This document shows positions 27,809-59,346 of a stretch of DNA of 64,000 bases, piece by piece. Each line of letters opens with the position of its first letter. The first letter of the stretch is position 1. Under the pieces are notes generated by a model, which was not told where the DNA came from, made no database searches, and saw nothing but the letters and a program-made list of their open reading frames with translations. The position numbers and the translations under genes are program-made. Source of the DNA: Rhodobacter capsulatus (lineage in GTDB: Bacteria; Pseudomonadota; Alphaproteobacteria; Rhodobacterales; Rhodobacteraceae); the NCBI RefSeq assembly GCF_003254295.1, contig NZ_QKZO01000004.1, forward strand, positions 1-64,000. The letters are read 5' to 3'.

Positions 27809-30727
27809 TCAGATCGGAGACAGAAAAAGCTCCAAGCTCCCAGAATAATAAATACCGTTTACATCTCCGAGTGAGGGTTTCCCAGAAATGATCAAAGGAT
27901 CTTCGCTGTTTGCTTCAATGAAGTGTCCGGAAACTGACCTGTTCAAAGGATCAGTTATATACAGCCCGTTCCCGTTCTGAGCCAGTGCGGATGTAGTCCA
28001 TGGGTTGCTGTTAAAATGGAGAGATGACCCATCCGAAGTGATGACGTCTCCCGGAAGAGCCTTGAAATAGCGGGTCGCAGAGAACGTTATGGGTGCCGCA
28101 GAAGAAAGAGTAGCTTTCAAGATCCACTCATACCCGGACGGTGGGTTTCCGACATTGATGGTCATGGATCTATCCGATGTATAATAATTTTTGTACATAT
28201 TTGAAGTCGCCCCGTCTCCCTTTACAGCTGGGATCAGCATACGGATATTTCCGAGATCCAACCGTCTCGTAATATTGAATGCCAGACTATCGGCATATTT
28301 CTTGCTGACGACCTGATTGTCCGCGGTCGGATCCGTCGCGATCGGCACCGTCGGAAAGGCGGCAAAATCCTTCACGCCCGCAATGGCTTGGTTGCCGGTC
28401 AGGGACACCTTGGTGTCCGCATAGGCCTTGTTGGCCACCGCGGTCGAGGTGGTGCCCATCGCCGGGATATAGGTTGCCGGGGGCAGGTTCACCGTTCCCG
28501 TTCCCGTCAGCGTGCCGGTGAAGGTTTTCGTCCCGGCCACCGTTTGGGCACCGGTGGTGTTCACTGTCGGCAGCGTGATCGCAGCGGAACCGTCAAAGGC
28601 CACGCCATTGATATTCGCCGCCGCCGCCAATTTCGTCGCGGTGGCCGCATTGCCGGTGATCGAACCCACGATCGGCGAGGAGAAGGTTTTCACCCCGGCC
28701 ACCGTTTGGGCACCGGTGGTGTTCACCGTCGGCAGCGTGATCGCAGCGGAACCGTCAAAGGCCACCCCATTGATGGCGCTCGGCGCCACCAGCTTCGTTG
28801 CCGTCGCCGCGTTGCCGGTGATCGAGCCTACGATCGGCGAGGAGAAGGCTTTCACCCCGGCCACCGTTTGGGCACCGGTGGTGTTCACCGTCGGCAGCGC
28901 GATCGCAGCGGAACCATCGAAGGCCACGCCATTGATATTCGCCGCCGCCGCCAGTTTCGTCGCGGTTGCCGCATTGCCGGTGATCGAACCCACGATCGGC
29001 GCCGAGAAGGTCTTCACCCCCGAAAGCGTCTGATCGCCCGAGGTGCGCACCACCGAGCCATCCACCGCAAAGGTGGTGCCGACGAGCGACAGCCCGGAGC
29101 CTGCGGTATAGGTGGTGCCTTCTGCGCTCGCGACCTGCGCATCGACATAGGCTTTCGAGGCCACCTGGCCCGCCACGGTCGGTGCCGTGATCGGGATGAC
29201 CGGGATATCGCTGAAGGTCTTCACCCCTGCCACCGCCTGAGCACCGGTGGTATTCACCGTCGGCAGCGTGATCGCAGCAGAACCGTCGAAGGCCACGCCG
29301 TTGATGGTTTTCGCCGCCGCCAGCTTCGTTGCCGTCGCCGCATTGCCGGTGATCGAGCCCGCGATCGGCGCGGAGAAGGTCTTTACGCCGGCCAGCGTCT
29401 GATCGCCCGTCGTGCGCACCACCGTGCCGTTCACTGCGAAAGTGGTGCCCGCAAGAGACAGGCCGTCTCCCGCGGCATAGGTGGTGCCGACCGCGCCCGC
29501 AACTTGGGCGTCGACATAGGCCTTCGAGGCCACCTGGCCCGCAAGCGTCGGGGCCGCGGTCGGGACCGTCGGCAGGGACGAGAAGTTTTTCACACCCGCC
29601 AGCGTCTGATTGCCCGAGGTGCGCACGACGGTCGGATCCACCGACACCGTGATCCCGCCGCCGAGCGTGCCCGAAGCGGTAATCCCCGATCCCGCGGTGA
29701 TCGTTCTGTTTGCGAGATTGGTCACACGGGTGTCGAGGGTCGAAACATCGCCTTGCAGCGTGGTCACGTCGCTCCGCAACGAGACGACATTGCCTTGCAG
29801 GGTCGTCACCGAGGCGGTGAGCGCGGTCACATCGCCCTCGAGCACGGTCACCCGTCCAGCGAGCCCGTCGGTCAGATTGTCGACATAGGCCTTGTTGACG
29901 GCATCATTCGCATCATCAGGGGTGCTTGTAACATTGACCTCGCCACCGAAGGTGACAGCACCGGTGAAGCCCTTGGCCCCGGTGATCGGCGTGCCGCCGA
30001 TGATCTGGTTCGTACCCATCGTGACATAGCTGCCGCCCGCAGCCGAGATCGCGTTGTCGACGTAGAGCTTGTTCGCCGCCCCCATGTCGCCGGTGGGCGT
30101 TCGCACCGCGACGGAACCGGTGAAGCTCTTGTCGCCACTCACGCTCTGGTTCGTCGTCAGGGTGACCAGATCGTCGATCGCATCGTCGACATAGGCCTTG
30201 TTAGTGACATCGCGCGTCGAGGCCGGCACCTTCGTCACCTGCACGTCGTCGGAAAACAGCACCGGCCCATCGAAGGTTTTCGCACTGGTGATGGTCTGAG
30301 GCATGCCCGATTTCGTGACATAGTCGGACAGGTCGGGCTCCGGCGGCGTATAGGCGCCGAACATGTCCTCGACATATTGCACGTTGACGCCGGCGCCCGG
30401 GTCGCTGCCATCCGGGGTGAGAATGCCGGAGATCCCGAACCCGGCCATGTTCAGGCCCTGGGTGGCGATGTGATCGCCAAGGTTGTCGCCGCCTCCAGTC
30501 GTCGTGTCGGCCAGATAGCCGACCGTGCTCTGGATCACGCCTGAACTCTCCTCTGTCACCTCACCGGCCCGATCAATCCGAAACTGCGCCGCGGCCGGGG
30601 AAAGACCGAACAGAAGGGCGATGACGGAGACCGAAAGCAGATGGCGCGCGACGCCGGTCAGCCCCGACCGAGCCCGATCTCCTTCGGGGGCGATGCGAGA
30701 GAGTTGTGTCGTCATATTGCGCGCCAT
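27809..30727 (-). CDS. Secreted tail-fibre-like repeat protein
   Basis: A 972-residue protein starting at ATG 30,727 (GAGG 8 nt upstream). It has a Sec signal peptide (LLSVSVIALLFGLSPAAAQ, cleavage after AAA). The body is a series of phage-fibre-type repeats of about 60-90 residues built from NTTGAQTVAGVKTFSSPIVG, SITGNAATATKLAAA and INGVAFDGSAAITLP, together with VSKKYADS/NKAYVDN spacers. A coiled-coil-like segment sits near residues 310-360 (VTALTASVTTLQGNVVSLRS). A non-repetitive C-terminal domain of about 150 residues follows (from RRLDLGNIRMLIPAVKGDG). Phage fibres are cytoplasmic and lack signal peptides, so a secreted version suggests a surface or periplasmic fibre, adhesin or decoy. 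Repeats are nearly identical at DNA level, so copy number may vary. Confidence 0.75.
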   Translation of the reverse strand: MARNMTTQLSRIAPEGDRARSGLTGVARHLLSVSVIALLFGLSPAAAQFRIDRAGEVTEESSGVIQSTVGYLADTTTGGGDNLGDHIATQGLNMAGFGISGILTPDGSDPGAGVNVQYVEDMFGAYTPPEPDLSDYVTKSGMPQTITSAKTFDGPVLFSDDVQVTKVPASTRDVTNKAYVDDAIDDLVTLTTNQSVSGDKSFTGSVAVRTPTGDMGAANKLYVDNAISAAGGSYVTMGTNQIIGGTPITGAKGFTGAVTFGGEVNVTSTPDDANDAVNKAYVDNLTDGLAGRVTVLEGDVTALTASVTTLQGNVVSLRSDVTTLQGDVSTLDTRVTNLANRTITAGSGITASGTLGGGITVSVDPTVVRTSGNQTLAGVKNFSSLPTVPTAAPTLAGQVASKAYVDAQVAGAVGTTYAAGDGLSLAGTTFAVNGTVVRTTGDQTLAGVKTFSAPIAGSITGNAATATKLAAAKTINGVAFDGSAAITLPTVNTTGAQAVAGVKTFSDIPVIPITAPTVAGQVASKAYVDAQVASAEGTTYTAGSGLSLVGTTFAVDGSVVRTSGDQTLSGVKTFSAPIVGSITGNAATATKLAAAANINGVAFDGSAAIALPTVNTTGAQTVAGVKAFSSPIVGSITGNAATATKLVAPSAINGVAFDGSAAITLPTVNTTGAQTVAGVKTFSSPIVGSITGNAATATKLAAAANINGVAFDGSAAITLPTVNTTGAQTVAGTKTFTGTLTGTGTVNLPPATYIPAMGTTSTAVANKAYADTKVSLTGNQAIAGVKDFAAFPTVPIATDPTADNQVVSKKYADSLAFNITRRLDLGNIRMLIPAVKGDGATSNMYKNYYTSDRSMTINVGNPPSGYEWILKATLSSAAPITFSATRYFKALPGDVITSDGSSLHFNSNPWTTSALAQNGNGLYITDPLNRSVSGHFIEANSEDPLIISGKPSLGDVNGIYYSGSLELFLSPI
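28505..29400 (-). repeat. Near-identical tandem coding repeats in the fibre gene
   Basis: Blocks encoding GVAFDGSAAITLPTVNTTGA plus GSITGNAATATKL recur with very high DNA identity near 28,540-28,680, 28,700-28,840, 28,870-28,990 and 29,240-29,370, with a longer spacer before the last. They are prone to recombination and to assembly collapse. Confidence 0.75.
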
Positions 30728-31158
30728 GATTACGCCTCGTCTACTGGGGACCATTTTCTCCATTGTAATCACGCGAACGAAAGCAACCAAACAAGATGAG
30801 ACGGAAATTCACATGAAACGGCGAAATAAGTCGAATTTGCCGCCAATCTCGGAAAAACAATTTCGCAAAACTGTTGATTTAGGCATCTTCAGGCGGCACA
30901 ATGCTGCGCGTTGAATATCATTTCGGAAAAGATATCATATTTTATTTCCAGATGACCGGAGATCACACATTGAAAATCCGGATTTTCAGATTTTCACCAT
31001 GCCGACAAAGTCTGTTGCGTTTTGTCGTGTCAACCGCCGGACAGGCCGTGACGGCGATCTACGAGCCGCGCGAATATATCCGCTGTCCATGGCGTTCCAG
31101 ATCAAGGCGCGGGGCGGCAGACTGTGCTGTCATGGAGCCAATTGCTCCGGAGGCCCGC
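30728..31158. other. Divergent promoter region, AT-rich
   Basis: About 430 bp separate the fibre gene (minus) from the MgtC-like gene (plus). The middle, 30,770-30,990, is unusually AT-rich for this genome. No gene with a ribosome site is seen. It probably carries both promoters. Confidence 0.5.
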
Positions 31159-33432: not shown

Positions 33433-34137
33433 ATGACCGCACACAAGTCACCGCACGAGTTCGTCGGCATCGGTCTCTATACGATCGATGAGGCCGCGAA
33501 GCTCCTCAAGTCGCCCACCCGGACCGTCCGGCGGTGGCTGCTCGGTCATGACTTCAAGGCGAGAAATGGCGAGACGCGGCATTCTCCTCCTCTTTGGGCC
33601 ACGGATCTTCCTCATGCCGATGGGGCGGCCGAGCTGAGCTTCCGCGATCTCGTCGAACTTCGCTTCGTGCGCGCCTTCGTCGAGATGGGGCTCGATATCC
33701 GAATTGTCCGGTCCTGCCTTGAGACCGCTCGCGAATGCATCCAGTCGGATCGACCATTCTCGTCCGGCCGCTTCCGCACCGATGGCAAGCGGATCTTTCT
33801 GCAAAGTCTCGAACAGGATGACACGCCCGTCCTGATCGACCTGAAGCGGAAGCAATTCGTGTTTCATCAGATCGTCGAGCGCACCTTCAAGGATCTCGAT
33901 CTCGAGGATGACATCGTCACCCGCTGGCGCCCGTTCCATGGCAGGGCCAGCATCGTCGTCGATCCGAAGCGCGCCTTCGGTCAGCCGATCGCGGCAGAAT
34001 CCGGCGTGCCGACGATCGTTTTGGCGGAAGCCGTCGTCGCCGAGGGCTCTGTGACGCGGGTGGCCGCCCTTTACGAGGTGGATCGTGCGGCCGTTCAGGA
34101 TGCGGTGACCTTCCACAAGGAGCTCGCAGCCGCTTGA
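33433..34137 (+). CDS. DUF433-type antitoxin with N-terminal HTH
   Basis: A 234-residue protein. It starts with a MerR-like winged helix (GLYTIDEAAKLLKSPTRTVRRW) and a middle region (SFRDLVELRFVRAFVEMGLD, IRIVRSCLETAR). It ends with a DUF433 module (KRAFGQPIAAESGVPTIVLA, SVTRVAALYEVDRAAVQDAV). DUF433 proteins are paired with DUF5615 toxins, binding both toxin and operator. The next gene is such a toxin and overlaps or abuts its stop, as expected for coupled antitoxin-toxin synthesis. Likely autoregulator of this pair. Confidence 0.85.
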   Translation: MTAHKSPHEFVGIGLYTIDEAAKLLKSPTRTVRRWLLGHDFKARNGETRHSPPLWATDLPHADGAAELSFRDLVELRFVRAFVEMGLDIRIVRSCLETARECIQSDRPFSSGRFRTDGKRIFLQSLEQDDTPVLIDLKRKQFVFHQIVERTFKDLDLEDDIVTRWRPFHGRASIVVDPKRAFGQPIAAESGVPTIVLAEAVVAEGSVTRVAALYEVDRAAVQDAVTFHKELAAA

Positions 34138-34139
34138 GG

Positions 34140-34529
34140 ATGATGCTCGACGAAAATCTTCCCCCGGCGATGGCCAAGGCTTTGGCCGCCCTTTTCGTCA
34201 ACGAGCACCAGATCATCCACCTTCGCGATCGCTTCGGCTCCGGGGTGACGGACATCGCATGGATGACGGAACTTGCACGGGATGGTGCATGGGTCATCCT
34301 CTCCGCCGATCGCAGGATATCGAAAAACCGCTCGGAAAAGCGCGTGTTTACCGAGTCCCGGTTGATCGGGTTTTTCTTTGCGCCGAGCCTTCAAAAGGCG
34401 CCCACGTTGAAGAAGATGGAGCGCCTCATGGCGGTCTGGGACACGATCGAGAAGCAAGTGCCTCTGGTGCGCGGCGGGTCCATGTTTGAAATTCCGGGCA
34501 AAGGCAACCTCCTGCAGCCGATTGCGTGA
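34140..34529 (+). CDS. DUF5615 PIN-like toxin
   Basis: A protein of about 129 residues with the PIN-like acidic sites of the DUF5615 family: MLDENLPPAMAKALAALF at the N-terminus (first Asp-Glu pair), DIAWMTELARDGAWVILSAD in the middle, and SADRRISKN after it. It would be a metal-dependent RNase held in check by the DUF433 partner. The start may be ATG 34,140 or 34,143 (GAGG directly upstream is very close; an earlier AAGGAG in the antitoxin end is an alternative). Length is normal. Confidence 0.82.
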   Translation: MMLDENLPPAMAKALAALFVNEHQIIHLRDRFGSGVTDIAWMTELARDGAWVILSADRRISKNRSEKRVFTESRLIGFFFAPSLQKAPTLKKMERLMAVWDTIEKQVPLVRGGSMFEIPGKGNLLQPIA

Positions 34530-34773: not shown

Positions 34774-35850
34774 ATGGACCAGACCCAGACCAACAGCTTC
34801 CGCTTCATTGACCTCTTCGCGGGGATCGGCGGCCTGCGCCGCGGCTTCGACGCGATCGGCGGGCAGTGCGTGTTCACCAGCGAGCTGAACAAATACTCGC
34901 AGATGACCTACCGGGCGAATTTCGGCGAGGATCACGAGATTGCCGGGGACATCACCAAGGTCGACGCGGCCGACATCCCGGAGCATGATCTTCTTCTGGC
35001 CGGGTTTCCCTGCCAGCCGTTTTCGCTGGCGGGTGTCAGCAAGAAGAACTCGCTGGGCCGTGCGCACGGATTCGCCGACGAGACGCAGGGCACCTTGTTC
35101 TTCGACGTCGTCCGCATCCTGCGTCACCACAAGCCGAAGGCCTTCCTGCTCGAGAACGTCAAGAACCTGCTGAGCCATGATCGTGGCAACACGATGCGCG
35201 TCATCCTGCACGCCCTCGACGAGCTCGGCTACGAGGTCGACCACAAGGTGATCGACGCGCGGTCATGGGTGCCGCAGCATCGCGAGCGGATTTTCATCGC
35301 CGGCTTCCGTCGTGACCACAAGACGACCTTCTCCTTCAACGACGTCTCGATCCCGGCCGGGCCCAATCCGACGCTGTCGTCGATCCTGCACCCCGAGGAC
35401 GGCTCCGAGGCGCCCGACGCCCATTTCACCGTCGGCCCGGAGGCCAAGGTGAGCGACCGTTACACGCTGACCGACGGCCTTTGGTCCTATCTGCAACGCT
35501 ATGCCGCGAAACATCGCGCCGCCGGCAACGGCTTCGGTTTCGGCCTCGTCGGTCCGGACAGCGTGGCGCGCACCCTGAGCGCCCGCTACCATAAGGACGG
35601 GTCGGAAATCCTGGTGGCGCAGCCCGGCAAGAACCCGCGGCGCCTGACGCCCCGCGAATGCGCGCGACTGATGGGTTTCGACCGCCCCGGCTCGAACGAT
35701 CCGTGGAAAATCCCGGTGAGCGACACCCAGGCCTATCGCCAGTTCGGCAATGCCGTGGCGGCGCCCGTGTCGGTTGCCATTGCCGAGGCGATGGCGCCTT
35801 GGCTGGGCAACGTGATCGCGATCAGGGGCAGAAGGAACAAGATTGCCTGA
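34774..35850 (+). CDS. dcm: Dcm/EcoRII-type DNA (cytosine-5) methyltransferase, predicted CCWGG
   Basis: A 358-residue m5C methylase. Motifs in order: [36 protein letters not shown] (catalytic Cys), [59 protein letters not shown]. The target-recognition region contains GNGFGFGLV and [15 protein letters not shown]. These correspond closely to what I recall of E. coli Dcm in the same place, so CCWGG is the predicted target. Start ATG 34,774 ([15 protein letters not shown]) is chosen over an upstream ATG because it keeps the family N-terminus; E. coli-type Dcm has a longer N-terminal extension. First gene of a five- to six-gene overlapping operon; it should protect host sites from the downstream nuclease module. 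Confidence 0.95.
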
Positions 35851-36298
35851 AAAGAAAGCTCCCCTTTCGCGGTCCGAGATGATGGCGCGGGTCCAGTCCA
35901 AGGACACCAAGCCGGAGATGGTGCTGCGAAGGGGGCTGCATGCGGCGGGTTTCCGCTTTCGCCTTCATGCGCGCGATCTGCCGGGGTCTCCCGATCTGGT
36001 TTTTTCGAAATACCGGAGTGCGATTTTTGTTCATGGCTGTTTCTGGCACGGTCACGAGGGATGCGCCAATTTCCGCATTCCGACCACGCGCCGAGAATTC
36101 TGGACCGAAAAGATTTTCCGGAACCGCGAACGTGATCTCTCCGCGCGCGAAAGTCTTGAACGGTCTGGCTGGCGGGTGCTGGTCGTCTGGGAATGCGCGA
36201 CAAGGTCGATTTCTGTGGATTGTCTTGTCCGGACTGTCGCAGCATGGTTGCAAGGCATTGAAGCAGGTGCAGAATTGACATCGAGCGGCCTCTCCTGA
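35843..36298 (+). CDS. vsr: Very-short-patch-repair endonuclease (Vsr)
   Basis: A 151-residue T:G mismatch nicking enzyme that repairs deamination of 5-methylcytosine made by the upstream methylase. Landmarks: [18 protein letters not shown], the catalytic Asp in LPGSPDLVF, the metal/zinc region [13 protein letters not shown], and [18 protein letters not shown] with RVLVVWECA. These closely parallel E. coli Vsr. TTG 35,843 overlaps the methylase stop by 8 nt, with AAGGA just upstream, so a non-ATG start is likely. Its presence supports cytosine methylation at CCWGG as the operating modification. Confidence 0.94.
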
Positions 36299-36347
36299 GG
36301 CGATCCGGAATTTGCGCGCAGGCGCGGGACAGCAAGGAATTGGAAGA

Positions 36348-37976
36348 ATGAGCGACCTTATCAATAATCCCAATGCCGCCCGGCTGATCTACGGCCTGCG
36401 CGACACCGGCTATAACGTCAAGACCGCCGCCGCCGACATCATCGACAACTCCATCGCGGCGGGCGCCACAGAGATCAACATCGACGTCCAGATGCTCACG
36501 GGCGGGCGCAAGATCGTCAGCTTCGGGGACAACGGGCACGGCATGGATGCGGCCGGGATCAGGGATGCCATGCGCTATGGCGCGAACAAGCGGCCGGACC
36601 CGAAAAGTCTCGGCAAGTTCGGACTGGGGCTCAAGACGGCGTCGACTTCGGTGTGCAAACGTTTCAGCGTGATCTCGCGGAAGAGCCCGGATGCAGATCT
36701 CGCCAAGTATACATGGGACCTTGAGCATGTCGCGGCGCAGAATGCCTGGGAAATGCTGGCCCCGCCCGTGACAGCCGACGAGATCGACCTCTTCGAAGAT
36801 CTGTGCGGCCCGACCGGAACTCTCGTCGTCTGGGAGAACTGCGACCGGATCCTCTCCAAGGATTACATGGACGAGACGAAGGAAAAAGCGGCACTCAAGC
36901 GCATGACGGAGGCTCTGAGCCGACATGTTTCGCTCGTCTTCCATCGGTTTCTCGATGTGACCGACAAACGTGAAAAAGACGTCGTGATCCGCATCGACGG
37001 CACGCCCGCGAAGCCCTGGAACCCCTTCTATCCGCAACGGTCCGAACAGGTTCTCGCGGCCAACAAGCAAAAGCTGATCGTCGAGCTTCCTGACGGGAGC
37101 GAGGAGACGGCGGGCATCAAGGCATGGATCCTCCCGCACCGGCGCGACATGGAGAAAGACGAAGAGGCGGAATTCGCCCGGATCACCAACCGGGCCCAAG
37201 GGTTCTACGTTTATCGGGAAGGGCGTCTCATCCAGGACGGCGGCTGGATGGATGTCTTCGGCCCGCCCGAACCGCACACGTCCCTGTTGCGGATCGAGTT
37301 CGACTTCGGCCACGAGCTGGACGACGCCTTCAGCATCGACGTCAAGAAATCCCGGATACTCTTCCACCCCGATCTTGGCGACGGGCTTGAGAAATTCCTT
37401 TCTCCGATCCGTCGAGAGGCAGAGGCGCGGTATCGGCGCATCTCCCGCGAGGATGCGAACAAGAAGAACACGGTTGACCATTCCAGCGCGAACAAGAACA
37501 TCGCGAATACGCCCAACACCGCCAAACCGCAGGTTGCGGGCGTCGATGTGGCCACGCAGACCGCCGAGGTGAACAACAACCGTGGCGTGAAGATCAGGAT
37601 CAAGGCCCCGATCCAGAACGATGTCAGCCCGGACTCGATCCACGTCGAGGCGGTGACCACCATCACCAATGGGCATCTCTGGGAACCGGCCTATCGCAGC
37701 CCAGGCGCATCGGGACACGTTCCGGGCGTGATCCTGAACAAGCATCACGACTTTTACCAGAAGATCTACCAGCGCGCCGCCGCGAACGGCTATGCGGTGG
37801 AGGGGATGGACCTGCTCCTTTACGCCTTCGCGATGGCCGAGCAGAACAATACCGATCCGGAACTGGAGCCGGTGTTCGAGGACATTCGCGAGGAGATTTC
37901 CTCCAACCTTCGGAAATTGCTGCGCAACATGCCGGATCCGGAACCTTCGGAGCTGACAGAGGCCGACGAGGATTGA
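36348..37976 (+). CDS. MORC/MutL-type GHKL ATPase
   Basis: A 542-residue protein with a Bergerat-fold ATPase: N box TAAADIIDNSIAAGA, G1 box FGDNGHGMD, G2 box LGKFGLGLKTASTS. An S5-like transducer follows with the conserved Lys (FSIDVKKSRILFHPD), then a charged linker and a C-terminal helical region (LLLYAFAMAEQNNTDPE). Family members of this kind occur in prokaryotic restriction loci and are relatives of eukaryotic MORC proteins; they are thought to close around DNA as ATP-gated clamps. Start ATG 36,348 follows GGAAGA; an upstream in-frame ATG lacks a site. The gene begins 49 bp after vsr and ends one base before the HNH gene start. Proposed role: ATP-driven clamp or loop-trapping subunit of the nuclease complex. 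Confidence 0.9.
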   Translation: MSDLINNPNAARLIYGLRDTGYNVKTAAADIIDNSIAAGATEINIDVQMLTGGRKIVSFGDNGHGMDAAGIRDAMRYGANKRPDPKSLGKFGLGLKTASTSVCKRFSVISRKSPDADLAKYTWDLEHVAAQNAWEMLAPPVTADEIDLFEDLCGPTGTLVVWENCDRILSKDYMDETKEKAALKRMTEALSRHVSLVFHRFLDVTDKREKDVVIRIDGTPAKPWNPFYPQRSEQVLAANKQKLIVELPDGSEETAGIKAWILPHRRDMEKDEEAEFARITNRAQGFYVYREGRLIQDGGWMDVFGPPEPHTSLLRIEFDFGHELDDAFSIDVKKSRILFHPDLGDGLEKFLSPIRREAEARYRRISREDANKKNTVDHSSANKNIANTPNTAKPQVAGVDVATQTAEVNNNRGVKIRIKAPIQNDVSPDSIHVEAVTTITNGHLWEPAYRSPGASGHVPGVILNKHHDFYQKIYQRAAANGYAVEGMDLLLYAFAMAEQNNTDPELEPVFEDIREEISSNLRKLLRNMPDPEPSELTEADED

Positions 37977-37977
37977 G

Positions 37978-38811
37978 ATGCTTTCGGCCCAGCAGGAACT
38001 CATCCGGAAAGAACTGGAGAACGGCACAGGCGCCGCGATCGGGATGCGGGTGGACCCGACCGGAACGCGGACACGGCTGAGCATCTGGTTTTCCGATCTC
38101 GACGAACGGCACGGCCCGGTCGCCGAACTGCGCCCTGTCGGCCTTAAGGGTTACCAGGTGACGCTGGGCTTCGGAACATTCGCCGGCGATGTCGTCCGGC
38201 AAATCCGCGCGGCGAGCGACGAGGACGTCCGCCTCGCACAGGCTCTGCTGGGGTCGATCCCCTCGTCGATCGAACTCGATCTGGGCGGGCAGGATGTCAC
38301 CTCCTGGCGGGTGGAGACGGGTCAGACGAAGGTGATCGCCACCGCCCGGAGGTTGCCGCAGGAGCCGGAAGCCGCGCTGACAGCCATGTGCAAGGACGCG
38401 ATCGTCCCCATGATGGCGGCCATGGCCGAACTGATCGGCTATGACGTGATCGAGGCCGAGGACGAGGCGGAAGGGGAGTTCGAGGGGGCAATCCTGCTCT
38501 CGACCGTGCGGCGGCGGGAGCGCAACCCGCGAAACCGTCTGCTGTGTATCCGCCTGCATGGGGAAAAGTGCGCCTGCTGTGGCTTCGAGCCGCGCCAGGC
38601 CTATGGTGCGGCGGGGGGCATCATCGAGGTGCATCACCTCGAGGCGCTGTCCTTGCTGTCCGCCCCTCGGCCCTACAATCCGGCGACCGATCTCGTTCCG
38701 CTTTGCCCGAACTGTCACCGCGCAGTTCATACCCGTCGCCCCGCGCCATATTCCCTCGAGGAGATCCGGCGGCTGCTCGGTCTTGGCGATGCGCGGGAGG
38801 TGAACGGATGA
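37978..38811 (+). CDS. HNH endonuclease
   Basis: A 277-residue protein. The C-terminal third is a zinc-bound HNH domain: CIRLHGEKCACCGFEPRQAY (first Cys pair), IIEVHHLEALSLL (catalytic His pair), and YNPATDLVPLCPNCHRAVH (Asn, second Cys pair and final His). The N-terminal 180 residues are unrecognised: a beta-rich start (LSIWFSDLDERHGPVAELRP, GYQVTLGFGTFAGD) and a helical middle, possibly a DNA- or partner-binding module. The start lies one base after the GHKL stop (TGAGATG) and the end overlaps the SNF2 start as ATGA, so synthesis is coupled. It is the only obvious catalytic nuclease of the operon apart from Vsr, so it is the best candidate for the cleaving subunit. Confidence 0.88.
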   Translation: MLSAQQELIRKELENGTGAAIGMRVDPTGTRTRLSIWFSDLDERHGPVAELRPVGLKGYQVTLGFGTFAGDVVRQIRAASDEDVRLAQALLGSIPSSIELDLGGQDVTSWRVETGQTKVIATARRLPQEPEAALTAMCKDAIVPMMAAMAELIGYDVIEAEDEAEGEFEGAILLSTVRRRERNPRNRLLCIRLHGEKCACCGFEPRQAYGAAGGIIEVHHLEALSLLSAPRPYNPATDLVPLCPNCHRAVHTRRPAPYSLEEIRRLLGLGDAREVNG

Positions 38812-40628
38812 TCGACCTCGCGGCCCAACCACCCTCGTTCGAGGCGATGGCGACATCGGTTCCCGACGGCTTTTCCGTCTCGGAGCGCATCCTTGAGCCG
38901 GTGATCCTCATCGGGCGTGAGGATGGGCGCATTCAGGTCCGCCTCGGCGGGCGTCGCGTCGTGCGCGGCGAAGAAAAAGTGTTCGTGGCACCATCGCCCG
39001 GCCATGCTTGGGTTGCAGATGGCAACGTGTTGCGGCCGATCCCTGCCGACGCTCCGGCTTTGCTGTCCCGAATGCTCGGGGGGGAGCCTGCGGAGAACAT
39101 CAGCTATCCGACGGCGATCCGTCTGCTTCGTGCCTGCTCCGACGAGATCGCCGTCCAAGCTGCCCCGGACGTGTTGCATGCAGGCAAGCTCGCCGCGGAG
39201 GAGCTGAGCGCGGAGGTCGACATTCCGGGGCTCCACGCCGATCTTTTCCCCTATCAGGCGCGCGGCGTGCAATGGATGTGGGAAACCGTGAACCGGACGG
39301 GCGGCCTCATTCTCGCCGACGAGATGGGGCTGGGCAAGACCTTGCAAATCATCGCCCTTCTGCTTCTTGACCCGCCCGAAAAGACCGCGCCGGCCCTGAT
39401 CGTCTGCCCCACCAGCCTGATCGCCAACTGGGTCCGGGAGTTTCAAAAGTTCGCCCCCGGGATCAGCATCATGGTGCATCGCGGGGCGCACCGGGCCGGG
39501 ATCTATCGCGACCTTCAGGTGGCGAGCGTCGTGATCACCACCTACGAGACGATGGTCAACGACGTCTCGATCTTTTCCTCTTTCGAATGGTCTTGGGTGA
39601 TCTGCGACGAGGCGCAGGCGATCAAGAACCCGCATTCGAACCGCCGCAAGGCGATCGTCACCATCCCGCGGCGCCACTCGATCCCGATGACCGGAACGCC
39701 GGTGGAGAACACGCTGCTCGACCTCTGGTCGTTGGCCGACTTCGCAATTCCCGGGATGCTGGGTGACCGCACGGTATTCGAGGCTGAATTCCCGGACACC
39801 GTCGAGGCCGGCAAGGCGCTCGGTGCGCTGACGGATCCCGTGATCCTGAAGCGGCGCGTGCGCGATGTCGCCGCGGACCTGCCGGAGCGGATCGATATCG
39901 ACCTGCCCGTCGAACTCGATGACCGCCTCGCGCGGCACTATGACGATGTGCGCGAGGCGACACTCCAGAAATATCCGGTCGCCGGTGCCCTCGTGGCCAC
40001 GCTTCAGCTTCAACTCGTCTGTGCGCACCCGTGGCTCCGGGTTCCTGACGCCGAGACCGCCGATTGGGACGATGTGAAAATCGTCACCCACGACGAATTG
40101 CCCCTGATCACCCCCAAGATGGAAAGGGTGATCGATCTGCTGCGCGAGGCGTTCCAGAACGGGCGCAAGGTCATCGTCTTTGCCCTGTTCAACCGGATCG
40201 GCGATCTGCTGCGGCAAGCCTGCAAGGACTTCACCGGTGTCCATTGGGGGGCGATCAACGGATCGACGCCGCAACAGGAGCGCCAGGCGATCGTCGACGC
40301 CTTCACCGAATTCGACGGCGCGGCCTGTCTCGTGCTGAACCCCAAGGCGGCGGGCGCCGGGCTGAACATCACGGCGGCCACGGTGGTGATCCACTTCACC
40401 CCCGTATGGAACCCGGCACTGGAAGCGCAGGCGAGCGCCCGCGCGCATCGGCGGGGGCAGACGGAACCGGTCACGATCTACCGGCTGTTCTACAAGAACA
40501 CGGTCGAGGAGGTGATGCTCGAACGGTCCGCATGGAAAAGCGATCTGGCAAACGAAACCGTGCCCGTGTCGAGCCGTGACGCGGACGACCTGAAACGGGC
40601 ACTCGAAATATCTCCGGTGAGGACATGA
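38808..40628 (+). CDS. SNF2-family DNA translocase
   Basis: A 606-residue SF2 ATPase. Motifs: I DEMGLGKTLQIIALLLL, Ia VCPTSLIANWVREFQKF, II VICDEAQAIKN, III PMTGTPVENTLLDLWSL, V LNPKAAGAGLNITAA, VI EAQASARAHRRGQTEPV. The first 150 residues have no clear motif. Start ATG 38,808 overlaps the HNH stop by 4 nt (ATGA). Its own stop overlaps the next start in the same way. SNF2 proteins move along double-stranded DNA; here it likely drives scanning or loop formation for the MORC/HNH subunits. Z1-type ATPases are the partner I recall in related MORC-linked loci; none is seen here. Confidence 0.93.
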   Translation: MIDLAAQPPSFEAMATSVPDGFSVSERILEPVILIGREDGRIQVRLGGRRVVRGEEKVFVAPSPGHAWVADGNVLRPIPADAPALLSRMLGGEPAENISYPTAIRLLRACSDEIAVQAAPDVLHAGKLAAEELSAEVDIPGLHADLFPYQARGVQWMWETVNRTGGLILADEMGLGKTLQIIALLLLDPPEKTAPALIVCPTSLIANWVREFQKFAPGISIMVHRGAHRAGIYRDLQVASVVITTYETMVNDVSIFSSFEWSWVICDEAQAIKNPHSNRRKAIVTIPRRHSIPMTGTPVENTLLDLWSLADFAIPGMLGDRTVFEAEFPDTVEAGKALGALTDPVILKRRVRDVAADLPERIDIDLPVELDDRLARHYDDVREATLQKYPVAGALVATLQLQLVCAHPWLRVPDAETADWDDVKIVTHDELPLITPKMERVIDLLREAFQNGRKVIVFALFNRIGDLLRQACKDFTGVHWGAINGSTPQQERQAIVDAFTEFDGAACLVLNPKAAGAGLNITAATVVIHFTPVWNPALEAQASARAHRRGQTEPVTIYRLFYKNTVEEVMLERSAWKSDLANETVPVSSRDADDLKRALEISPVRT

Positions 40629-41068
40629 GCACGCAGACCTTCATCAAGACCCTCAGCGCCAATGACGTGGGCACCACAGGCGGCCACATGGGCGGCATTC
40701 TCGTCCCGCGGGGCGATGGGCAGTTGCTCGCCTTTCTGCCGCCTCTCGATCCCGGTGTCCTGAATCCGGACGCCTGGATCAATTGCGTGACGCCCGATGG
40801 CGAGGTGCTCCGCCTGCGGTTCGTCTATTACAACAACCGGCTTCACGCGCCGACAGGAACCCGGAACGAATACCGGATCACCTATCTGACGAAGTTCCTG
40901 AGGGATGCTGGCGCCAAGGAAGGCGACACCTTCGAGATCTCGAAAGACGACGATGCCGGTACCTACCGCATCCGGGTGATCTCGCGCGAGGCGGCGATGC
41001 CCGAGCCGACAGACGATGATGGCCCGGTCCGGATCAGGCTCACGACGGGATGGCGTCGCGTCCACTGA
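40625..41068 (+). CDS. Free-standing EcoRII N-terminal-type DNA recognition protein
   Basis: A 147-residue protein matching the effector/DNA-binding (B3-like pseudobarrel) domain of EcoRII. FIKTLSANDVGTTGGHMGGI parallels EcoRII FIKRLSANDTGATGGHQVGL, and LRFVYYNNRL...TGTRNEYRITYLTK parallels the YYNSRH...KTRNEKRIT loop that reads CCWGG. The PD-(D/E)XK catalytic half of EcoRII is entirely absent, and the frame ends naturally at 41,068. Start ATG 40,625 overlaps the SNF2 stop as ATGA. As last gene of the operon it is well placed to be the recognition subunit, bringing the SNF2/HNH/MORC proteins to unmethylated CCWGG, the same site predicted for the methylase. Confidence 0.87.
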   Translation: MSTQTFIKTLSANDVGTTGGHMGGILVPRGDGQLLAFLPPLDPGVLNPDAWINCVTPDGEVLRLRFVYYNNRLHAPTGTRNEYRITYLTKFLRDAGAKEGDTFEISKDDDAGTYRIRVISREAAMPEPTDDDGPVRIRLTTGWRRVH

Positions 41069-41089
41069 CGCGCCGCCATCCCGCAATCT

Positions 41090-43204
41090 TCAGTGAACGC
41101 GTGATCCGCCGGAGATCCGGATCCGTGGCGTTTCCTCGATGTCGAAATACCCCTCAGCCCTTGCACGCCCAAGAATTTCGACCGCGCCAACGCATTGCCT
41201 CTCCGAGGGAAGCCGACGGTCCTGCTGGGCGCATGCCTTCAGGATACCGTCGTCCTTGAGCGAAAACTGACGGTTCGGCGCCGCCCATTGCCGGAGCCGT
41301 TCCCAAAAGGCGCCACCGTGTTCGATGACCTTCGCTTGCGCCTCGATGCCGGAGACCATCGCAGCCTCGCGGCGGCCGTCTCGCTGAGCCGCATTCGCAT
41401 CTTGGGGCTCTACGAGGCAATCGTCAAAGTTTTCGGCATGGTCGACCTCAAGCCGCATCACCGCGGCCCAACAAGCCTGCTTTTTCGCCCATTCGGTTAT
41501 GTTGCGGATCCCGCTCTCCGGCACGGTGATCACGCTGGCAGCGGCTTCGCATGACGCAAGCAGAGCTGCCATCATGACATCCGGAACCTGTTGAGCATTC
41601 CAGACCGAGTCCAGATCGAGCAGTTTTCCTTTTTCGTCAGCATCCTGAACCATCTTGGCGATGCCATAGGTCACGATGTTCGCCCGATAGCCACCAGGAT
41701 ACCATTCCTGCTTGGGAATGGCGCGTTCGAGCGCACGGAAGATGATCACCTTGGCCACGAGGCGTTTGAACCATGTTTCGTCGTATTTGCGATCGCTGGC
41801 GGACCATGCCTCACCGATGTCCGAGGCGAATGCGGCGAAGTTTTTCTGGGCACCCTTGCTGACCGTGTCCGGTTTCATCCGGAACGACAGTTCGACCTTC
41901 GCGAGATCGGTCTTGCTGAACAACTGGGATTTCGGATGCTCGTTGTCGAAGCGTCGGCGATCGGCGGTGCCGAGTTTGTTGCGCTCGACCTGATATTGCC
42001 CCCGGGCGCGCTCATAGAACCAGCGCGTCTGCCGACTGGCGCCCTGCGCCGGTGGCGCGAACACCCGACGCGAATATCCCTCCATCCGCATGTGGAACGG
42101 ATGGTTCGAGAAGAAATCCGCGGCGCTCACCTTGTTCTGGCTGTTGGCGAACTTGGAAATGTTTGGCACCACCTGCTCCGACGCCTCCGCAGGAACCACT
42201 GTCAGCTTCATCTGGACATGGATATTCGCCAAGGCATCCGGGCTGTGTTTCCGCGCTGCGTGAAGCGATGCCGTCGTCTGGCCGCCGTTCACAATCTGAA
42301 GGTTTTTCGCCGAAAGGATCCGCACCCCGGCCCCGTCCACCACGGTTTCGACGCTGTCGGCCGTTGCAGAGAGACCGTTGTTGTAGCTGAAAAACATCTC
42401 GGGCTCGCCCTTGATCGTGTCGCGGATCCCCTCGTTGACCGATTTTCGTCGCGCCTGGATGAAGCTCCGGATGTTGGATTCAAGCAGCCTTGCCCCCCAT
42501 TTGTCATAGAGATCCGCGAGCTGTCGGCCGTTGATCACTGCGAGATAGGCAGGCAAGGCGGTTTCCGGACCCGAAGCGGCCAATGCCGGGAGCGCGCCGC
42601 CGAAGTCATCGGCGAAGTTCACGACAATCTTTTCCTTCGAGCACGTGGTTTAGACCCGATGCAAACGGCCCAGGTCCCAGATGTTGTAGGTCACCGGAAT
42701 GTCGTCGATTTTACCCGCAAGCACCGCGTCGGTGCGGGCATTGTAGGCGCCGTTCGTGACCAGGATGAGCTTCACCTTGGACACGGCGGGCCACGCCTCG
42801 GCGATCATCGTCGCCGTCCCGAATTCAGGGGTTCCGAGAGGCAATTGGTCCCTGAACTCGCGCCGACGGCAGGCCGCCACGAAGTTGATGAGGTGACCGA
42901 AGAGCTTTTTCACGTCCGCGGCGTTCACGCTGACGGGGGCGTCGTCTTCGAAAAGCTCACAGACCACGACACTGAGGATGCCTTCGGCATCACGCGGATC
43001 CCCGCCATGTCCGTCGATGCGCAATGTCTTGCCCGATGCGGCTCCCCGGTACTTGATCCGATCTGATGTCTCGAGTTCACCCTCCGCTTCCAGCGTCGAA
43101 CACATGCGTTCGAACGCGAGATCCTGCGCATCAAGCCCGGAAACCGCACTCTCCTCGCGGATATCGGCAAGAAGTTCCTGGTTGAATTCGTTCAGGTGTT
43201 CCAA
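41090..43204 (-). pseudogene. AIPR (abortive infection phage resistance) protein split by one in-frame stop
   Basis: Two frames in the same phase (ATG 43,204 to 42,653 and 42,649 to 41,090) together make an AIPR-family protein of about 704 codons. The N-terminal part (ELETSDRIKYRGAASGKTLR, RIDGHGGDPRDAEGILSVVV) and the C-terminal part (FSYNNGLSATADSVE, LQIVNGGQTTASLHAARK) are both typical. TAA at 42,650-42,652 is the only break. A GTG at 42,622 with AAGGA 10 nt upstream could restart translation, so two polypeptides may be made. The gene faces the Dcm/MORC operon, stops 22 bp apart. AIPR genes recur beside MORC-linked restriction loci. Confidence 0.82.
42650..42652 (-). other. In-frame ochre codon inside AIPR, with a downstream restart site
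   Basis: TAA follows ...LGRLHRV and is followed in frame by TTCSKEKIVVNF. AAGGA at 42,633-42,637 and GTG at 42,620-42,622 could permit reinitiation 28 nt after the stop. Confidence 0.75.
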
Positions 43205-43489: not shown

Positions 43490-44491
43490 TTATTTAGAAG
43501 GTTGCTTATTGAATAACGGCGCATCTTCGGCCAATATCATTTCGGGCGGCTCCTTTATTACTTTATCCTCATTTCGGTTATTAAACTGTTGCGCAAATTC
43601 CTCATCCGTCCATTCACCATCGCCGTAATCGGGTACATCCATCACTTCTAAACCGTGACCTTCGAAATTCCTAATTCCAAACAACGGCCCAACATAGGGA
43701 AATTGTGGCGCAAAATAAGTTCGCACAAAGGGGTGTAGCTCAAAATCCTTAGCTACAAACGTGCTTCCTTTTGTCCCGCTTATAAACCAAGGGCGAATGC
43801 CCCAAGTTCCAAATTGACAGTCAATGATTTTGCGCATATGGAGAACCGCACTGATCGAATCCTTCCGCAATGTTTCATAGGTACTTTTATTAAAGTGAAT
43901 GGACCGGTGACGAAGTACTTTAAGCTCCCTGAACTCTTTTGCCACTTCAGGCAGGAGAATGCCCCAAGCCTCCAATGTGGATATTGGCGCGTCCCAGTTA
44001 TCAAATGAGTTCTTTCGATAGACTTTTTGATACTCGGCAGTATTTTGAAACATTGGGCGCATGTCGATAATAAGATGGTTGAGTATCCTCTCACCTAAGG
44101 CACACGCTCCCACCAATGACGGGTAAAAGTGCCCCATCACATAAGCTGAACGCACCTGCGCGAAAAACTCATTGTGATATGAAATTATTGACATTGGCTT
44201 CGTATCAATCTCAATAAATCTTTCGCTCTTTTCGATAATTTCATTTTCGCCAAATTCGTAAGCAAGGCCTTTCATTATAGCTGCATGATTTCTCATCCAA
44301 GTTTCTTTTACTTCGGGCTCCCAGTGATCTTCAATTTTGGTCCCCAAGAGTGCAGCACGAGTATCGAAGTCACCGTGCGTGCAAAGAAGTCGTCGCCGAC
44401 CTGAATCAGGGATAAGGGATTTGAACTCCTCAAACTTCAGGCCTTTTGGAGCTTGATAAATTGTAGGTCGAGTCAGCGTAAAAACGGTCAT
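43490..44491 (-). CDS. Hypothetical protein with HEPN-like motif, 333 residues
   Basis: A soluble, AT-richer gene. A helical central region (YVMGHFYPSLVGACALGERI, LNHLIIDMRPMF, ISTLEAWGILLPEVAKEFRE) ends in LKVLRHRSIHFNKSTYETLR. The string RHRSIH fits the R-x4-H pattern of HEPN ribonucleases and is placed at a helix start as in that fold. The C-terminus is acidic. It lies downstream of, and in the same orientation as, the SIR2-domain gene but 314 bp away, so cotranscription is possible but not clear. Function unassigned; the HEPN reading is an inference from one motif. Confidence 0.55.
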   Translation of the reverse strand: MTVFTLTRPTIYQAPKGLKFEEFKSLIPDSGRRRLLCTHGDFDTRAALLGTKIEDHWEPEVKETWMRNHAAIMKGLAYEFGENEIIEKSERFIEIDTKPMSIISYHNEFFAQVRSAYVMGHFYPSLVGACALGERILNHLIIDMRPMFQNTAEYQKVYRKNSFDNWDAPISTLEAWGILLPEVAKEFRELKVLRHRSIHFNKSTYETLRKDSISAVLHMRKIIDCQFGTWGIRPWFISGTKGSTFVAKDFELHPFVRTYFAPQFPYVGPLFGIRNFEGHGLEVMDVPDYGDGEWTDEEFAQQFNNRNEDKVIKEPPEMILAEDAPLFNKQPSK

Positions 44492-44805: not shown

Positions 44806-46158
44806 TCACATGGCGAGATCATATTTCTCTCCTGCGGCAACTTTCTTGAAGAGACTAACAGCATCGTGAGACCATTTTCGGGCTACACTGGTCGCCTTTG
44901 TTCCAGTCTTGATCCGGCATTGATAGCGATTGTCACTTGACCGAAGGTCTATTCCCTTTTCCTCCCTAACCCGATGGATCAGTTTATTCAGGGCTTGCCA
45001 GTTGGGAAGACCGACGCGCTGCGCAAGTTGGCTGATCGTCAATGGATGAGAAAAATTTGGGTTACTCACTGCCGTTATCCCTAATAGAGTTGGCAGGAAG
45101 TCCTTCTCGTCTGCCACCTTTTCGAGCGTCTCGTAGTTAACTTCGACTGCCCCTGACGGGATGTCATGGCGAACAAGCTTCATAGTGCGAGCAGCAAGCG
45201 CCCGGACCAGCTTAGGGTTGATCGACTTTAGGGCGGACTGGCTCTTCAATGCTCTAAATATCCAGTCGAATTCGTTCGTGTGAATAGCGCGAATACGATA
45301 TTCCTTGCCGTCGACGGCAAAAATTGCCTGATCAGGCGGGTGCCTTTCGATCCTATCAGGTCTCCAGACAATCTGATAAACGTTGGGGATCAGCCCATCC
45401 TCTCCTGCAACAAGTTCTCCAATGTCTCTGAGGATGGACTTCACGTTAGGATCACCCAATCCGTATCCCATGATGAACACGGGGTGCTCCGCGAAGTAGG
45501 TCAGAAGTTTAGCGGAAACATATTTTTTCTTTTCAGACCATTCGTCGTAATCTGCACGAGTGAGAACAATCGAGGGAGGATTTGAGACATCTCCGTGAAT
45601 ATGGAATATCTCGCCAAAGCTATTGGTGTTGTATCGAAGAATCGTTTGCCCGCTGACGGGTTCATATCCATCAAACACCTGCTCTAAGAACATGTCATAG
45701 TTCGTGGTTATGATTGCGTGAGGCTTTATTTCAGCGAAAGCAGCCAGCTCATCCTCAAGATCTCCGCCGGTGACATCTTTAGTTCTTGGGGTTACCGTTT
45801 GGATGTGTCCGCATACCATGTGCTTAAGGAAGATGTCCTTATTCACTCTGGATGAATAGTATTCCGGCGGAAAGTGGTTCCTCCCCTCTTTCCACGCCCA
45901 TTCGAAGGCCATCTCCGCCAAAACAGACCCGATTGCAACCATGTCATCATCCAGCTTTTGCCTCCAGTACTCATATGCGTCCGCTCCTGCTGGGAGCTTT
46001 TCAAACATGGCCTGAAGAAGCTCCGACCAACTTGGGTATCCAAAGTAACGCCGTGAAATACCGCTGCCGATGAACAGGATGGGCTGACACTCGAATTCAA
46101 GTAATAGATCCCTGATGGCCGCGTCCGCCTTTAATTTATACGATGTCTCTTGATCCAA
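44806..46158 (-). CDS. SIR2-domain defence-type protein
   Basis: A 450-residue protein with a SIR2_2-type NAD-binding domain over residues 1-270: ILFIGSGISRRYFGYPSW (the G-x-G/S loop), AIITTNYDMFLEQ, IFHIHGDVSNP (the His-Gly pair near the active site) and VFIMGYGLGDPNVKSIL. The C-terminal 180 residues are helical, with a winged-helix-like unit (LTISQLAQRVGLPNWQALNK). Bacterial SIR2 proteins of this kind deplete NAD+ on phage infection and cause abortive infection. The start is TTG 46,158 with GAGGAA upstream. The gene is AT-richer than the host. The adjacent HEPN-like gene may be a partner. Confidence 0.85.
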   Translation of the reverse strand: MDQETSYKLKADAAIRDLLLEFECQPILFIGSGISRRYFGYPSWSELLQAMFEKLPAGADAYEYWRQKLDDDMVAIGSVLAEMAFEWAWKEGRNHFPPEYYSSRVNKDIFLKHMVCGHIQTVTPRTKDVTGGDLEDELAAFAEIKPHAIITTNYDMFLEQVFDGYEPVSGQTILRYNTNSFGEIFHIHGDVSNPPSIVLTRADYDEWSEKKKYVSAKLLTYFAEHPVFIMGYGLGDPNVKSILRDIGELVAGEDGLIPNVYQIVWRPDRIERHPPDQAIFAVDGKEYRIRAIHTNEFDWIFRALKSQSALKSINPKLVRALAARTMKLVRHDIPSGAVEVNYETLEKVADEKDFLPTLLGITAVSNPNFSHPLTISQLAQRVGLPNWQALNKLIHRVREEKGIDLRSSDNRYQCRIKTGTKATSVARKWSHDAVSLFKKVAAGEKYDLAM

Positions 46159-48879: not shown

Positions 48880-49608
48880 TCAGAAGGCACCCCGAAGCTT
48901 GAACTGCCCGACGACCTGATTGCTGAGGTACTGGGTGGCGAACGCGCCAACGATCAGGGCAATCCCAAGGTCGCCGTGCCCTGCCGCCGACCGTGACTGC
49001 GTGATGATCTGATTACCCGCCGCCGTCGTCTGCGTCGTGAATGATGCCAAATCCTGCTCGATCTCTGCCCGCAACGGCAGGTCATGGGCGAAGCGGATTT
49101 CCCCGGCAGCGAACAGGACAGCGAGGTTCTCGATCATGAAGGTCTTGCCCGCGTTGACGTAGCGCCCCTTCCGCGTCCAATCCTGCCCACCCGTCATCTG
49201 CACGGCCTTGTGGTCGATGTTCTGATCCCAGAGCATGTCCGACACGACGCGACCGATAGAAGTGCCGTCGATTGCCAATTCCGATTTGCCGCCGAACGGC
49301 GGCGCGTTGGTAAGGCGGATCAGATGATCCACGACCGCGACGTAGGACACGCCCCGGAAGCGGTCGGCATAGACGACGGTGCGCTTGCGCGGGCCGACGA
49401 TGACCGCGCCGTCATCCACAATGGGCAGCGCCTCGTCCTTGATCACCACCACGGCGGAATAGTCGTTCGCCTGCCCCAAGTCGGCGGCAATCTGAAAGCG
49501 GCTGTAACCCGTCACGCGCGGGATGGCCGGGTCTTGGTTCGTCTCGTTCACAACCCGCCCGTCAGGCAGATAGATCAGGTCGAGTTTGGGGATCACATGC
49601 GCGGACAT
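48880..49608 (-). CDS. Terminase large subunit, nuclease domain as separate gene
   Basis: A 242-residue RNase H-like nuclease of the terminase type. Acidic residues sit where expected: FQIAADLGQANDYSAVVVI (first Asp), KSELAIDGTSIGRVVSDMLW (second) and AAGHGDLGIALIVGAF (third). It would cut concatemeric DNA during packaging. Its start (ATG 49,608) overlaps the ATPase gene by 16 nt in a different frame. The ends of both proteins look natural, so this seems a two-gene TerL rather than a recent frameshift. No portal or capsid gene follows; next comes the right end of the IS66 unit. Confidence 0.82.
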   Translation of the reverse strand: MSAHVIPKLDLIYLPDGRVVNETNQDPAIPRVTGYSRFQIAADLGQANDYSAVVVIKDEALPIVDDGAVIVGPRKRTVVYADRFRGVSYVAVVDHLIRLTNAPPFGGKSELAIDGTSIGRVVSDMLWDQNIDHKAVQMTGGQDWTRKGRYVNAGKTFMIENLAVLFAAGEIRFAHDLPLRAEIEQDLASFTTQTTAAGNQIITQSRSAAGHGDLGIALIVGAFATQYLSNQVVGQFKLRGAF

Positions 49609-59221: not shown

Positions 59222-59231
59222 GATCGGCCTC

Positions 59232-59255: not shown

Positions 59256-59346
59256 GTCACCCATCACCCGGTCTGATCAACCGAAGATGCTGATTTTATT
59301 AGGTAATCCAACCGTCAGCACGGGTTAGCATGGTCGGATTCTGGAA

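Follow-up and report, generated by a model that had tools for sequence, protein, structure and literature searches.

Eukaryotic MORC ATPases take part in gene silencing; for their relatives in bacteria, a role in restriction has been a prediction since 2008. In the accessible portion of that prediction, Iyer, Abhiman and Aravind (PMC2292703) describe operons that unite SWI2/SNF2 ATPases with MORC proteins, often together with HNH or EcoRII-like nucleases and in some cases with a VP1/RAV (B3) protein; cytosine methylases and Vsr are frequent in MORC neighbourhoods, AIPR appears in the figure key, and the proposed mechanism is MORC-driven DNA looping with helicase unwinding at nicks. The CglI and NgoAVII systems, as covered by the available part of their description, combine a C5-methylase with a B3-domain nuclease and a superfamily 2 (SF2) ATPase, and cutting requires both ATP and unmethylated sites (PMC4267653). 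Here we analyse a stretch of 64,000 nucleotides from Rhodobacter capsulatus (contig NZ_QKZO01000004.1, positions 1 to 64,000; hereafter the window) that carries an operon encoding a Dcm-like methylase, Vsr, a MORC-type ATPase, an HNH protein, an SNF2 motor and a free EcoRII-N protein, the putative reader. From comparisons of sequence, we consider it fairly probable that this locus is a mobile, ATP-dependent restriction-modification system directed against unmethylated CCWGG.

The operon (34774-41068, + strand) consists of six genes that overlap or are closely spaced. The gene calls of a first-pass annotation, made from the letters of the DNA alone, hold on re-reading of the coordinates: dcm and vsr overlap by 8 nucleotides, the HNH gene starts past a 1-nucleotide gap after the end of MORC, and ATGA overlaps join HNH to SNF2 and SNF2 to EcoRII-N. 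The MORC start is most likely the ATG at 36348, so that the spacing from vsr is 49 nucleotides. All six frames are open and retain their conserved motifs. Pfam backs the assigned identities of Dcm, Vsr, MORC, SNF2 and EcoRII-N, and the HNH domain, which scores below its cut-off, has invariant Cys and His positions.

Scanning genomes with a MORC alignment of three rows yielded at least 75 loci, in which matches were counted anywhere within up to ~20 kb, some contigs ending early. Any BLAST match was present in 73 of the 75 loci listed, and in 41 an SNF2 gene lay within 3 kb of MORC. These 41 module loci had a match to Dcm in 40 cases, to Vsr in 31, to a free EcoRII-N in 34 and to AIPR in seven; HNH was adjacent in all but L077, where a weak HNH match lies ~6 kb away. 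The 32 further listed loci had MORC without SNF2 (L053 and L056 only because their contigs end), and EcoRII-N was found in none of them. Since Dcm lies upstream, divergent or downstream in different module loci, its linkage does not reflect one frozen block. There are two main gene orders, MORC-HNH-SNF2-reader, which is that of the window's clade, and SNF2-reader-MORC-HNH. By identity, the closest listed loci belong to Pseudotabrizicola, Alloyangia, Thalassovita and Devosia and to a metagenome-assembled genome of the Verrucomicrobiaceae.

The module was also found on plasmids and viral contigs. From 2158 plasmid records matching the reader we examined the nine with at least 80% reader coverage, and all nine carried SNF2, MORC, HNH, Dcm and Vsr, with MORC split in the Sphingomonas plasmid. 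A plasmid search with MORC (E up to 1e-40) returned the same nine and one Vibrio vulnificus record at 64% coverage. SNF2 occurred together with MORC in nine of 22 viral-contig loci. Within the class, MORC homologues (E up to 1e-20) were present in nine of 385 genomes, the window's own counted, and in none of the four other genomes of the same family in that sample. Two pairs of records were treated as single: G842 and the plasmid of Fuscovulum ytuae (Rhodobacterales) have the reader at identical coordinates (39114-39545), and G668 and L041 are one 10,060-base contig ('Maritalea mobilis'). Recurrence of the set in 41 of the 75 listed genome loci and on nine plasmids, and of SNF2 with MORC in the viral contigs, places the gene cluster beyond chance. 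As the first-pass annotation had expected, dcm and vsr are co-inherited with the MORC-HNH-SNF2-EcoRII-N genes.

To compare the reader with the methylase, we aligned target-recognition domains (TRDs) with those of E. coli Dcm (L112) and of the pECL18 methylase (L126), which, going by the plasmid name, we take to be M.Ecl18kI. The Ecl18kI site is given as CCNGG in the accessible part of its description (PMC4081073). Methylase classes were assigned by eye from alignment motifs. Class W has LWxYL, mostly with RTLSARY, like E. coli Dcm (THTLSARY in L073 and L075, RTISARY in L074); class N has GH replacing YL, and (N/S)T(I/L)SARY, like pECL18; class O has neither. The counts cover the 40 listed module loci with Dcm, leaving aside plasmids and viral contigs, L064 (no Dcm match within its stretch, reader TRNE), and L053 and L056, whose Dcms are W-class and whose contigs end before the reader slot.

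Thirty-two loci fell into class W, five into N and three into O. An EcoRII-N with the motif TR(N/D)E was present in 30 of the 32 W loci, in 0/5 N loci and in 0/3 O loci. All three O loci had an altered EcoRII-N with HNE, next to two tandem methylases in L059 and L070 and to one full and one partial match, near the contig end, in L078. The N loci, whose TRDs are 52-61% identical to that of pECL18 and 24-38% to that of E. coli Dcm, lacked EcoRII-N and carried either a protein that we call Y (L057, L069, L071) or one that we call X (L076, L077). Among viral contigs, all six W-class loci had TRNE readers, and L145 was another case of class N with protein X. For the 40 listed loci, Fisher's test gave p = 5.9e-7 on raw counts, 3.2e-6 at 33 clusters, 2.2e-4 at 21 and 0.015 at 12. 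These sequence patterns suggest that the reader may change together with the marking methylase.

Proteins X (~320 amino acids) and Y (~280 amino acids) gave nothing above the cut-off in a Pfam scan. Protein X follows HNH, or MORC in L077; a DGSxWEP motif marks its C-terminal part, which is similar to the corresponding region of the MORC proteins of the clade. Protein Y immediately precedes SNF2 in loci with Ecl18kI-like methylases. In L077, which has no adjoining HNH gene, protein X is followed by AAA_5 and LlaJI-type restriction genes.

Independent support for reading class W as CCWGG comes from EcoRII-type nuclease genes adjoining W methylases. Such genes adjoin a W-class Dcm in seven of the 41 listed module loci (L060, L062, L063, L065, L067, L072 and L085; Pfam-checked in L062, L063 and L072, with only the C-terminal part aligned in L060, L067 and L085) and lie beside Dcm in seven of the nine plasmids, the Dcm class being read in all but L131. 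Thirteen loci of the phylum and family samples carry an EcoRII gene; 11 of them had the W motif, the domain not being read in L117 and L118. The same neighbours could mean that the module is an accessory to, or a competitor of, a classical EcoRII-type system, that is, a modulator or remnant using the same Dcm and restricting nothing alone. We consider this improbable: 34 of the 41 listed module loci have no EcoRII-type match within up to ~20 kb, the scanned window proteins contain no EcoRII-C (a search that did not extend to the rest of the genome), and the module has a nuclease of its own, whose HNH residues are invariant.

The reader, moreover, is found with different cutters. EcoRII-N relatives occurred in 15 of 295 genomes of the family, namely five free readers (the window's counted), all with SNF2 adjoining, four full EcoRII enzymes, four fusions to HNH and two divergent EcoRII-like frames of 466-479 amino acids. 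In the phylum sample, PF09217 was present in 13 of 398 genomes, as two free readers (window and G668), eight full-length frames, one interrupted EcoRII, one fusion (G674, shared with the family sample) and one sub-cut-off match. The four fusion frames (G674, G795, G1003 and G941) span 316-331 amino acids; a W methylase adjoins all four, and Vsr is present in three. Pfam finds both EcoRII-N (3.4e-09) and HNH_2 (5.7e-11) in the fusion at L124, to which the other three are 62-63% identical over nearly their full length, and a Thauera plasmid carries dcm, vsr and a 45% identical relative annotated as an HNH endonuclease. The fusions are perhaps compact CCWGG restriction enzymes. Within one Dcm setting, then, a reader of one kind is paired with cutters of three kinds, which is our strongest indication that it directs an HNH nuclease.

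The reader of the window is a protein of 147 amino acids with PF09217 as its sole Pfam domain. By sequence it matches 3hqf at 4.4e-08, and phmmer aligns it with EcoRII across LSANDxGxTGGH and TRNExRIT, and its H21 and the TR(N/D)E motif line up with EcoRII. The best fold match by E-value of its AlphaFold model (predicted local distance difference test, pLDDT, 89) was again 3hqf, which is EcoRII-N with cognate DNA (template-modelling (TM) score 0.56 by query length), followed by plant B3 domains. We take the functional residues of EcoRII-N to be H36, Y41, R88, K92, R94, E96 and R98, of which R88 alone is named, as R88A, in a structure title (1na6).

In the HNH protein, C198, C201, H219, H220, C243, C246 and H247 do not vary across 29 aligned sequences that include the window's, and are presumably the positions typical of Zn-type HNH domains. 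Its AlphaFold2 model (pLDDT 86) has an N-terminal alpha/beta domain for which Foldseek returned poor matches, the best being red chlorophyll catabolite reductase at a TM-score of ~0.3; we therefore claim no function for this domain. The HNH part is also weakly like modified-cytosine-dependent enzymes (6ghc, 0.016; PADLOC mREase_IV, 0.0013), as might be expected if the reader or the HNH protein sensed methylated, hemimethylated or modified cytosine in the manner of a type IV-like system or a replication-fork sensor. However, Dcm is present in 40 of the 41 listed module loci, so that the host itself would be the target of such a sensor, and no SRA-like domain was found in Pfam and fold searches. 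EcoRII-N serves as the effector domain in an enzyme whose substrate is unmethylated CCWGG, and this role likewise weighs against methyl sensing, which we regard as unlikely.

The window's Dcm is 52% identical to E. coli Dcm in the TRD and 67% in the catalytic part, compared with 43% and 56%, respectively, for the pECL18 methylase. The SNF2 motor matches the solved relative 1z63 (1.2e-66), and Vsr scores 146.2 bits against TIGR00632, above the cut-off. The MORC motif GhXhhpXXRhl is matched by GFYVYREGRLI at residues 285-295 of the window protein, whose closest solved relatives are MORC2 and then MutL; alignments reveal a C-terminal region of ~180 amino acids common to the SNF2-linked clade. The N-box Asp, D30, is invariant in all 31 aligned sequences, the window's included, at the position of what we take to be the catalytic Glu of MutL. 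With Asp in place of Glu, ATP turnover by MORC may be slow.

The relation of MORC to MutL and the place of Vsr inside the operon would both suit a mismatch-repair device in which MORC, Vsr, SNF2 and HNH fix T:G at CCWGG under the guidance of EcoRII-N, and Iyer et al., in the portion accessible, compare MORC systems with Vsr repair (PMC2292703). Yet 10 of the 41 listed module loci have no Vsr match (L064, among these, stops shortly past the module), and spread on plasmids and viral contigs in the company of EcoRII and AIPR points to conflict; a repair device thus seems to us very unlikely. Vsr was also rejected as evidence for the site, because it adjoins Ecl18kI-like and other methylases as well (L057, L076, L028, L029). 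The first-pass annotation had counted three independent parts pointing to one site, and Vsr, being uninformative about the site and without a match in those 10 loci, has to be removed from that count.

Several observations weigh against a reader matched to its methylase and aimed at CCWGG. Fisher's p rises to 0.14 once the 40 listed loci are collapsed to seven clusters. The MORC tree contains only three changes of each trait, too few for significance in a tree-based test of coupled change, and of its two supported independent pairs one shows the reader changing in the same direction and the other no difference. Two listed loci, L072 and L074, have a W-class Dcm without EcoRII-N; L072 can be accounted for by the EcoRII-C nuclease adjoining its Dcm, and L074 is unexplained. 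The methylases of viral contigs L140 (4000-5316) and L144 (5799-7076), which have GTWxxL...RTISARY without LWxYL and so fit no class, stand beside TRNE readers and would contradict the match if they are not CCWGG methylases. Identity over the whole TRD separates the classes less cleanly than the motif does: 8 of the 32 W rows (9 of 34 when L053 and L056 are added) match the pECL18 enzyme at least as closely as they match E. coli Dcm. The fusions have xRxxERRLT rather than TRNE beside W-class Dcms, which speaks against TRNE as the sole CCWGG signature, and they carry HNH_2, perhaps a different HNH subfamily. Finally, the counterparts of EcoRII Y41 and K92, residues to which we ascribe a role, are not conserved in the window's reader.

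For the restriction-modification system that we favour, we infer CCWGG methylation, reader binding, complex formation, DNA cutting and phage restriction in the following form. Dcm would methylate CCWGG in the host as a self mark, and the free EcoRII-N protein would locate unmethylated CCWGG in incoming DNA, which the HNH protein would cut. Between recognition and cutting, the SNF2 motor and the MORC clamp would provide ATP-driven tracking, looping or holding. Vsr would repair the T:G mismatches that arise from deaminated 5-methylcytosine. More tentatively, and as a possibility rather than a probability, we propose that swappable reader subunits matched to the methylase aim one conserved SNF2-MORC(-HNH) engine at different sites, such that specificity would reside outside methylase and nuclease and MORC would be an ATP clamp in DNA restriction. 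EcoRII-N would then direct the engine to CCWGG, the HNE-type EcoRII-N with tandem methylases to another, perhaps asymmetric, site, and the unrelated proteins X and Y would serve CCNGG-type methylases.

Next to the operon, the first-pass annotation had placed a convergent AIPR gene. AIPR is present and convergent but is not a single intact gene, since an in-frame TAA (42652-42650, - strand) splits it between the AIPR_N and AIPR domains; in L037, L038, L039, L041 and L043 the AIPR match lies within a single open frame of 708-773 codons, a length that fits both parts. The module does not need AIPR nearby, as 34 of the 41 listed module loci have no AIPR match. That this stop marks a whole locus decaying and non-functional in its host is most unlikely, given that the six operon genes are open and keep their conserved motifs.

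The genome (3.67 Mb, 24 contigs) contains one weak further methylase relative, on contig 7, and no further SNF2 relative at E 0.001. Because phage-type integrase genes flank it and other defence-like genes surround the module within the window, we read the region as a mobile defence island. A tRNA-Arg gene adjoins the first integrase gene, and the terminase-like and DUF927 genes between the integrases suggest prophage or satellite remnants. Directly upstream of dcm, a DUF433/HTH and PIN-like pair resembles a toxin-antitoxin module, DUF433 scoring just below the cut-off. A SIR2-domain protein matches the PADLOC candidate PDC-S25, and beside its gene lies an orphan gene of 333 codons; neither protein has a match in the 41 listed module loci. 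Farther upstream are genes for an OLD-like AAA/TOPRIM protein and for a 993-amino-acid frame with four short BppL_N-type (lower baseplate) matches.

Table 1. Positions of the operon genes, their neighbours and related genes in other loci (window coordinates unless a locus is named).
Feature	Coordinates	Strand	Evidence or remark
dcm, C5-cytosine methyltransferase	34774-35850	+	PF00145 9.5e-83; CCWGG predicted, E. coli Dcm-like target-recognition region
vsr, very-short-patch repair endonuclease	35843-36298	+	PF03852 1.1e-29; TTG start at 35843
MORC-type GHKL ATPase with S5 region	36348-37976	+	PF13589 (HATPase_c_3) 3.3e-27
HNH protein, C-terminal Zn-type HNH nuclease domain	37978-38811	+	PF01844 19.8 bits, cut-off 21.4
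SNF2-family motor	38808-40628	+	PF00176 (SNF2-rel_dom) 6.4e-57; PF00271 1.1e-17
Free EcoRII-N (B3 fold), predicted CCWGG reader, without nuclease domain	40625-41068	+	PF09217 1.2e-14
AIPR domain fragment, convergent, optional partner	41090-42622	-	PF10592 2.4e-97
AIPR_N fragment	42650-43204	-	PF22879 3.7e-33
EcoRII-N + HNH fusions	L124:1483-2421 (+); L166:925-1905 (-); L168:922-1875 (-); L170:1492-2439 (+); plasmid L173		
Protein X	L072:12349-13350; L074:12368-13345; L076:12353-13309; L077:11615-12547		
Protein Y	L057:7192-8037; L069:7207-8043; L071:7163-8020		
AAA_5 and LlaJI-type restriction genes	L077:12547-15544		
Phage-type integrase	16130-17335	+	
tRNA-Arg	17386-17462	-	
OLD-like AAA/TOPRIM protein	25553-27517	-	
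993-amino-acid frame	27809-30790	-	BppL_N-type matches
DUF433/HTH and PIN-like pair	33433-34529	+	
Orphan 333-amino-acid gene	43490-44491		
SIR2-domain protein	44806-46158	-	PDC-S25 3.2e-74
Terminase-like gene	49593-50387		
DUF927 gene	54503-56293		
Phage-type integrase	58025-59260	-	

A predicted site, CCWGG, a methylated and unmethylated control available from E. coli strains, and a reader of 147 amino acids with a solved relative make the old prediction for MORC in restriction directly testable. If true, the modular reading makes bacterial MORC a test bed for eukaryotic MORC proteins, and should readers prove exchangeable and paired with their methylases, sequence could reveal the specificity of a multi-subunit restriction machine. 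A search of the open-licence literature, with subscription papers and REBASE lying outside it, found neither experimental work on a MORC-SNF2 restriction locus nor a report of reader-methylase matching.

How, then, does the locus compare with known systems? It resembles the type IIE enzyme EcoRII in the B3 fold and motif of EcoRII-N, in its Dcm-type methylase and in the predicted CCWGG site. EcoRII, however, fuses EcoRII-N to EcoRII-C, whereas the reader of the window is separate and partnered by HNH, SNF2 and MORC; filing the locus as EcoRII was ruled out because its reader has no nuclease domain. The fusion loci of the family, of the form Dcm-[Vsr]-[EcoRII-N + HNH_2], share the Dcm class and the pairing of EcoRII-N with HNH, but their effector is one fused protein whose motif is altered, and no SNF2 or MORC match lies within ~1-1.5 kb on either side. 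With CglI/NgoAVII the locus has in common a C5-methylase, a B3-type reader, an SF2 motor ATPase and a nuclease, and these systems provide, as far as their accessible description goes, a biochemical precedent for a B3 reader acting with an SF2 ATPase and a C5-methylase. They differ in that their nuclease is of the PLD family and fused to B3 and their motor is DEAD/Z1, with no mention of MORC or HNH in the available part of the account (PMC4267653); Pfam found neither a PLD nor a Z1 domain in any protein of the operon. The GHKL ATPase (MzaB-like) and AIPR (MzaE-like) recall MZA, but assignment to MZA (MzaA-E) was rejected, as MzaB reached 191.6 of 850 bits and MzaE 284.8 of 1050, far under the cut-offs, and no Z1 match occurred among the ten window proteins scanned with Pfam, HNH, SNF2 and EcoRII-N being there instead. 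DISARM was likewise dismissed, with only the methylase and a generic helicase scoring.

The closest counterpart is the SWI2/SNF2 group of Iyer et al. (PMC2292703), in which, since they predicted this kind of operon, we file the locus. The window has the features given in the accessible part of their text: the MORC motif, SWI2/SNF2 in the operon, HNH with EcoRII-N/B3, and a methylase with Vsr, and the sporadic, mobile distribution of their operons recurs here. The first-pass annotation knew of no described system with this exact composition; that novelty is not supported, operons of this kind being described in that text. Its interpretation is supported in part, by the EcoRII stretches retained in EcoRII-N, by the co-inheritance of the methylase with the module and by a reader type that follows the methylase, but the unprecedented composition and the three independent pointers to the site are not supported. 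The text of Iyer et al., in the portion accessible, does not speak of matching between reader and methylase or of replaced readers, unlike the present comparison. In conclusion, the general kind of system has been known since the 2008 prediction, and what is new here is evidence suggesting that its readers are matched to the methylase and swappable.

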